From Pseudomonas bijieensis (GTDB lineage: Bacteria > Pseudomonadota > Gammaproteobacteria > Pseudomonadales > Pseudomonadaceae), in contig NZ_CP048810.1 in the NCBI RefSeq assembly GCF_013347965.1, positions 2,976,001-3,040,000 on the forward strand: a DNA stretch of 64,000 nucleotides, read 5' to 3'. A model generated the notes under the pieces. That model ran no database searches, was not told the DNA's origin, and worked only from the letters and a program-made list of their open reading frames with translations. Made by a program: the position numbers and the translations under genes. Positions 56,574 to 58,753 of this stretch are shown here, in pieces (the stretch's first letter is position 1; each line of letters starts with the position of its first letter).

Positions 56574-58753
<2,180 letters not shown>

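Follow-up and report, generated by a model that had tools for sequence, protein, structure and literature searches.

An in-frame amber codon at codon 71 of queA in the genome record of Pseudomonas bijieensis, weighed as recent mutation or consensus error

The queA gene of Pseudomonas bijieensis, as it stands in the single-contig assembly (6,730,360 bases, 6.73 Mb), is interrupted by an in-frame amber codon, TAG, at codon 71. Within the record the stop is genuine, and no mistake of frame or coordinates accounts for it. That the base is present in the organism is something we infer with somewhat more confidence than doubt, and the account we prefer is that one substitution recently turned codon 71 into a nonsense codon and so abolished queA function in the isolate from which the record was made. 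The gene lies in the window, by which we mean the whole stretch of 64,000 nucleotides analysed, i.e. bases 2976001-3040000 of the contig; the coordinates of queA and its neighbours are collected in Table 1.

Instead of the uninterrupted frame of ~345-350 codons expected of a QueA, translation of 58753-57704 is broken once, by a stop at codon 71, and has a normal stop at the end. On the minus strand the TAG (58543-58541) follows the codons of RLFG and precedes those of KASGGKLE, so that both the position of the stop and the openness of the remaining frame as far as 57704, as given in the preliminary description, are confirmed by sequence and translation. The gene was named from the NCBIfam match of a relative's intact protein together with that of the piece downstream of the stop, the latter matching TIGR00113 from position 84 on with 377 bits against a cut-off of 267.45. 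A genome-wide search with the QueA profile returned one queA with one TAG inside (E 4.2e-134), and a second copy in the sequence searched was rejected on that result; the PF02547 match extends over 2-322 of 322 (447.8 bits) when read through the one TAG. Compared with the known QueA family (TIGR00113, PF02547), the gene thus has the same sequence, the same place next to tgt and, apart from one codon, the same frame; it differs by the stop at codon 71 in the source record.

Table 1. Features in and around queA (positions in the window).
Feature	Position	Strand	Remarks
tgt, intact 377-aa frame	56574..57707	-	TIGR00430, 550.9 bits
queA frame, one interruption	57704..58753	-	genome C1:3033704-3034753; tRNA preQ1(34) S-adenosylmethionine ribosyltransferase-isomerase
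In-frame TAG, queA codon 71	58541..58543	-	from sequence and translation
268-aa open frame following the stop	57704..58510	-	starts with GTG, codon 82
tRNA-Leu(CAA), ordinary neighbour, divergent from queA	58862..58946	+	

Comparison with relatives reveals that codon 71 normally encodes glutamine, being CAG in 52, CAA in 5, TGC in 1 and CGC in 1 of 59 loci from 56 other genomes, with TGC and CGC belonging to genomes of other families of the order. In a protein alignment with 75 other rows, in which some genomes are possibly present twice and from which locus L085 was left out, the residue is Q in 74 and R in 1. The earlier statement that relatives have glutamine at this position therefore holds for nearly all of them (57 of 59 loci; 74 of 75 rows), the exceptions being the two genomes from other families and Pseudomonas oligotrophica (L190), whose QueA has arginine where nearly all Pseudomonas rows have Q, i.e. 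the residue varies even within the genus. Three related chains have solved structures (1vky, 1yy3 and 1wdi), and 1vky has arginine at the position that aligns with codon 71.

The genus set comprised 298 genomes, including the source genome, with a queA match in 295, and in the other 294 of these queA is free of in-frame stops (the reading for internal stops covered all 294, as 150 + 73 + 71 genomes); loss of queA by a stop is thus rare in the genus. The three genus genomes without a queA match are 73-90% complete. In one genome on a single contig, 86% complete, queA is split into three adjoining frames (G080:C1:386987-387983), perhaps through sequencing error. A degenerate DNA pattern with TAG at codon 71, which tolerates limited variation around the codon, matched nothing among the collected GTDB contigs, from which the source genome may be missing, and occurrence of the same amber in another species was rejected on that result. 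No paper on a queA nonsense mutation with queuosine was found in our limited literature collection.

The nearest relative examined, G010, is 95% identical over queA; a search with its QueA gave Pseudomonas sp. Q11, at 99% identity, as the best named match among the matches listed. Between the source genome and G010 the gene has 44 synonymous codon differences and five others, i.e. four amino-acid changes and the stop, and only three positions, stop included, are private to the source genome among 76 rows. Apart from the stop, these differences show purifying selection, as expected of a gene that was maintained until very recently or is maintained even now, and gene decay was rejected on the same comparison. 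The preliminary description had noted that the rest of the gene carries no further damage, which is borne out, and had taken this to suggest either an error or a mutation of very recent date. The recency of the stop is supported, since there is no further damage, 44 synonymous stand against four non-synonymous differences, and the queA of all 294 other genus genomes with a match lacks a stop; the possibility of error is a serious one, but the demonstrated class of error in the record is the small indel. The stop occurs only in the source genome among those examined and no second copy was found, as for a recent nonsense pseudogene. With one stop, no other decay and absence from the relatives examined, it resembles the point-mutation pseudogenes of dispensable core genes, differing in that it is here known from the assembled record alone. 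Events of this kind are ordinary.

The main rival explanation, to which we give a substantial but clearly smaller share of belief than to mutation, is that the TAG is a consensus error left behind in an assembly prone to errors, the organism's queA being intact; the otherwise conserved gene fits one still in use. It is a serious rival because the same assembly has demonstrable errors and because published long-read assemblies keep substitutions. The four complete 16S copies of the source genome have 19 gapped and 6 substitution columns among themselves, whereas those of the control genomes G010 (five copies), G005 (three) and G017 (three) have 0 gapped and 2, 1 and 1 substitution columns, respectively (two partial copies, one from the source genome, were left out). 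At sites identical in all control copies, three of the four source-genome copies have lost 7, 6 and 8 bases, and 15 of these 21 bases are G. Across 16S and 23S of the rRNA operons L235-L238 there are 46 gap and 12 substitution columns, of which ten substitution columns are paired, the two members being neighbours or nearly so, as natural variation between copies or shifted gaps may produce, and two are isolated. The rRNA gaps are indel errors in the style of long reads, those in 16S being absent in the three control genomes. In the tRNA-Ile of one rRNA operon (L092, G000:C1:6189480-6189700), one base is missing from the G run of the anticodon arm, and ARAGORN reads its anticodon as two letters.

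Outside the window, prfB, which encodes RF2 (TIGR00020, 485.3 bits), has at G000:C1:2944653 one A more than G010 in a short run; the extra base follows shortly after the programmed-frameshift site and turns codon 7 after the frameshift into a stop. No second full RF2-like gene was found in the genome, the matches besides prfA and prfB amounting to one partial match of 23.3 bits. RF2 is essential, so the break in prfB is almost surely an error, and one in unique sequence. Mutations that lower prfB frameshifting are reported to reduce the fitness of P. fluorescens SBW25 (PMC13245932). Since indel errors are demonstrable, single broken genes in this record are not readable as biology without the reads.

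Published work on long-read assemblies adds to the case for error in that nanopore assemblies are described there as retaining hundreds of mismatches after polishing (PMC8011154, PMC6591954), with 149 to 738 mismatches in a P. aeruginosa table (PMC8011154) and at least 337 substitutions in a long-read benchmark (PMC6591954). For the Pss508 assembly, more substitutions (900) than indels (561) are reported among read-supported candidates (PMC12007338). Yet the errors that can be demonstrated in the present record are single-base indels, whereas the change in queA is a clean substitution outside a homopolymer. The genome shares with the gene-breaking long-read errors addressed by Kastor (PMC12007338) and Homopolish (PMC8011154) the single-base indels in rRNA, tRNA and prfB; the queA event, being a substitution and not a homopolymer indel, differs. 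That a substitution is not the demonstrated class of error (46 gap against 12 substitution columns in 16S and 23S) tends to support mutation.

Substitutions themselves were compared in stretches aligned with G010 (216,594 columns, mean identity 89.4%). Differences with matching flanks were nearly balanced, with 2976 C-to-T and 2858 T-to-C, a slight C-to-T excess, and general C-to-T miscalling was rejected on these counts. In the context of the queA change, GGCcA, 13 C-to-T stood against 8 T-to-C, too few to tell, and some contexts were unbalanced, in either direction, e.g. CcT with 348 C-to-T and 256 T-to-C. Systematic miscalling of C as T at sites of this kind is not clearly indicated. Counting single-base gaps against G010 was discarded as a measure because, at ~89% identity, it mixes true divergence with alignment noise; the chromosome ends gave no alignment with the ends of G010.

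Scans for broken genes likewise bear on the quality of unique sequence. In a strict scan, 203 G010 genes placed on source-genome DNA yielded 17 stops in 12 genes and 3 frameshift flags, whereas 196 source-genome genes placed on G010 yielded 33 stops and 4 frameshift flags. As the control direction flags more stops, the flags appear to be mostly noise from wrong frames or starts and, by this crude count, unique sequence is not visibly worse than in the control, which argues against error; 11 of the 12 stop-flagged genes were judged by position, identity or Pfam, and not each by search. Among the 203 G010 genes, queA gave the only stop past residue 60 in a frame of at least 95% identity. Earlier automatic scans had given 22 and 48 stops on the source genome and 29 and 68 in the opposite direction, many of them in frames apparently antisense or upstream of the true start. 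Pfam analysis of four flagged frames placed two stops upstream of SurE or RlmA domains; one further frame was domainless and one was baseplate-like with the stop near its beginning. The break in prfB was found through the frameshift flags of one of the automatic scans, the other flag lying upstream of the start of a gene which we take to be eno.

On balance, a recent amber mutation remains our preferred explanation, supported, besides the class and the near balance of the substitutions, by the tolerance of S. meliloti for loss of queA. Counting against it are the lack of a queA stop in any of the 294 genus genomes, the near-certain errors elsewhere in the record, one of them in unique sequence, and the CcT imbalance. 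The probabilities that we attach to the explanations are a judgement and not a computed posterior.

If the mutation is genuine, translation of queA would end after 70 residues at a normal stop recognised by RF1. The tgt start overlaps the queA stop and is preceded, six bases before its ATG at 57707, by GAGGA, in line with the earlier proposal of a tgt ribosome site of its own inside the overlap; Tgt, translated from this site, would still insert preQ1 at tRNA position 34. Without QueA the epoxycyclopentane ring would not be added, and the tRNAs with GUN anticodons would stay at preQ1. It is likely that the 70-residue fragment or a restart product would be inactive and that the tRNAs would carry preQ1. 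The pathway order is Tgt, then QueA, then QueG/QueH (PMC10570037), and queG is intact in the same genome. In S. meliloti, loss of queA by mutation is reported to affect symbiosis little or not at all, and in a cell assay the mutant's effect was not restored by preQ1 (PMC3568095). A true queA loss would make the isolate a naturally occurring Pseudomonas without queuosine in which tgt and queG are retained, and it could serve for studying the role of preQ1 alone at the wobble base. Failing that, the finding would serve as a warning about a record with indel errors, including a broken and apparently essential gene.

The preliminary description had also allowed for reading through of the amber and had proposed a search for amber-suppressor tRNAs. 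Such read-through or recoding, by which some full-length QueA would be made, is very improbable, although conservation of the rest of queA is what continued function would also give. The RF00005 profile gave 64 tRNA matches in the stretches of the genome that were searched, and the anticodons, read by ARAGORN from 53 overlapping loci covering all 64, include no CUA, with one tRNA-Ile having a truncated anticodon; an amber-suppressor tRNA was rejected accordingly. RF1 (prfA) is intact with no internal stop, the genus relatives examined have no in-frame queA stop, and the GTDB contigs gave no match to the amber pattern, so that read-through found no support. The base after the TAG is A, and TAG followed by A is not, to our knowledge, a context that favours read-through. 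In a weak tRNA match elsewhere in the genome (L113, G000:C1:1983390-1983520; 36.9 bits), ARAGORN reads the anticodon as ACC; the body is tRNA-Leu-like by eye, and it is possibly a degenerate or mobile-element tRNA.

Least probable of all is a restart at the GTG of codon 82 whose 268-residue product keeps enough activity, since, although GGAG lies six bases before the GTG and 268 codons are open, the product would be an unusual enzyme without the first 81 residues, among them the stretch NNTRVIPAR, which 61 loci have in common with few changes, and its profile match begins at 84. From its sequence, the 268-aa frame may be a restart product but is probably inactive, activity of such a product being unlikely. 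Even read-through and restart taken together have a low probability, if a little above that of either. As a variant of genuine mutation, the amber may be real and tolerated, with low read-through or restart giving some QueA and queuosine being low rather than lost; we think this about as improbable as read-through itself.
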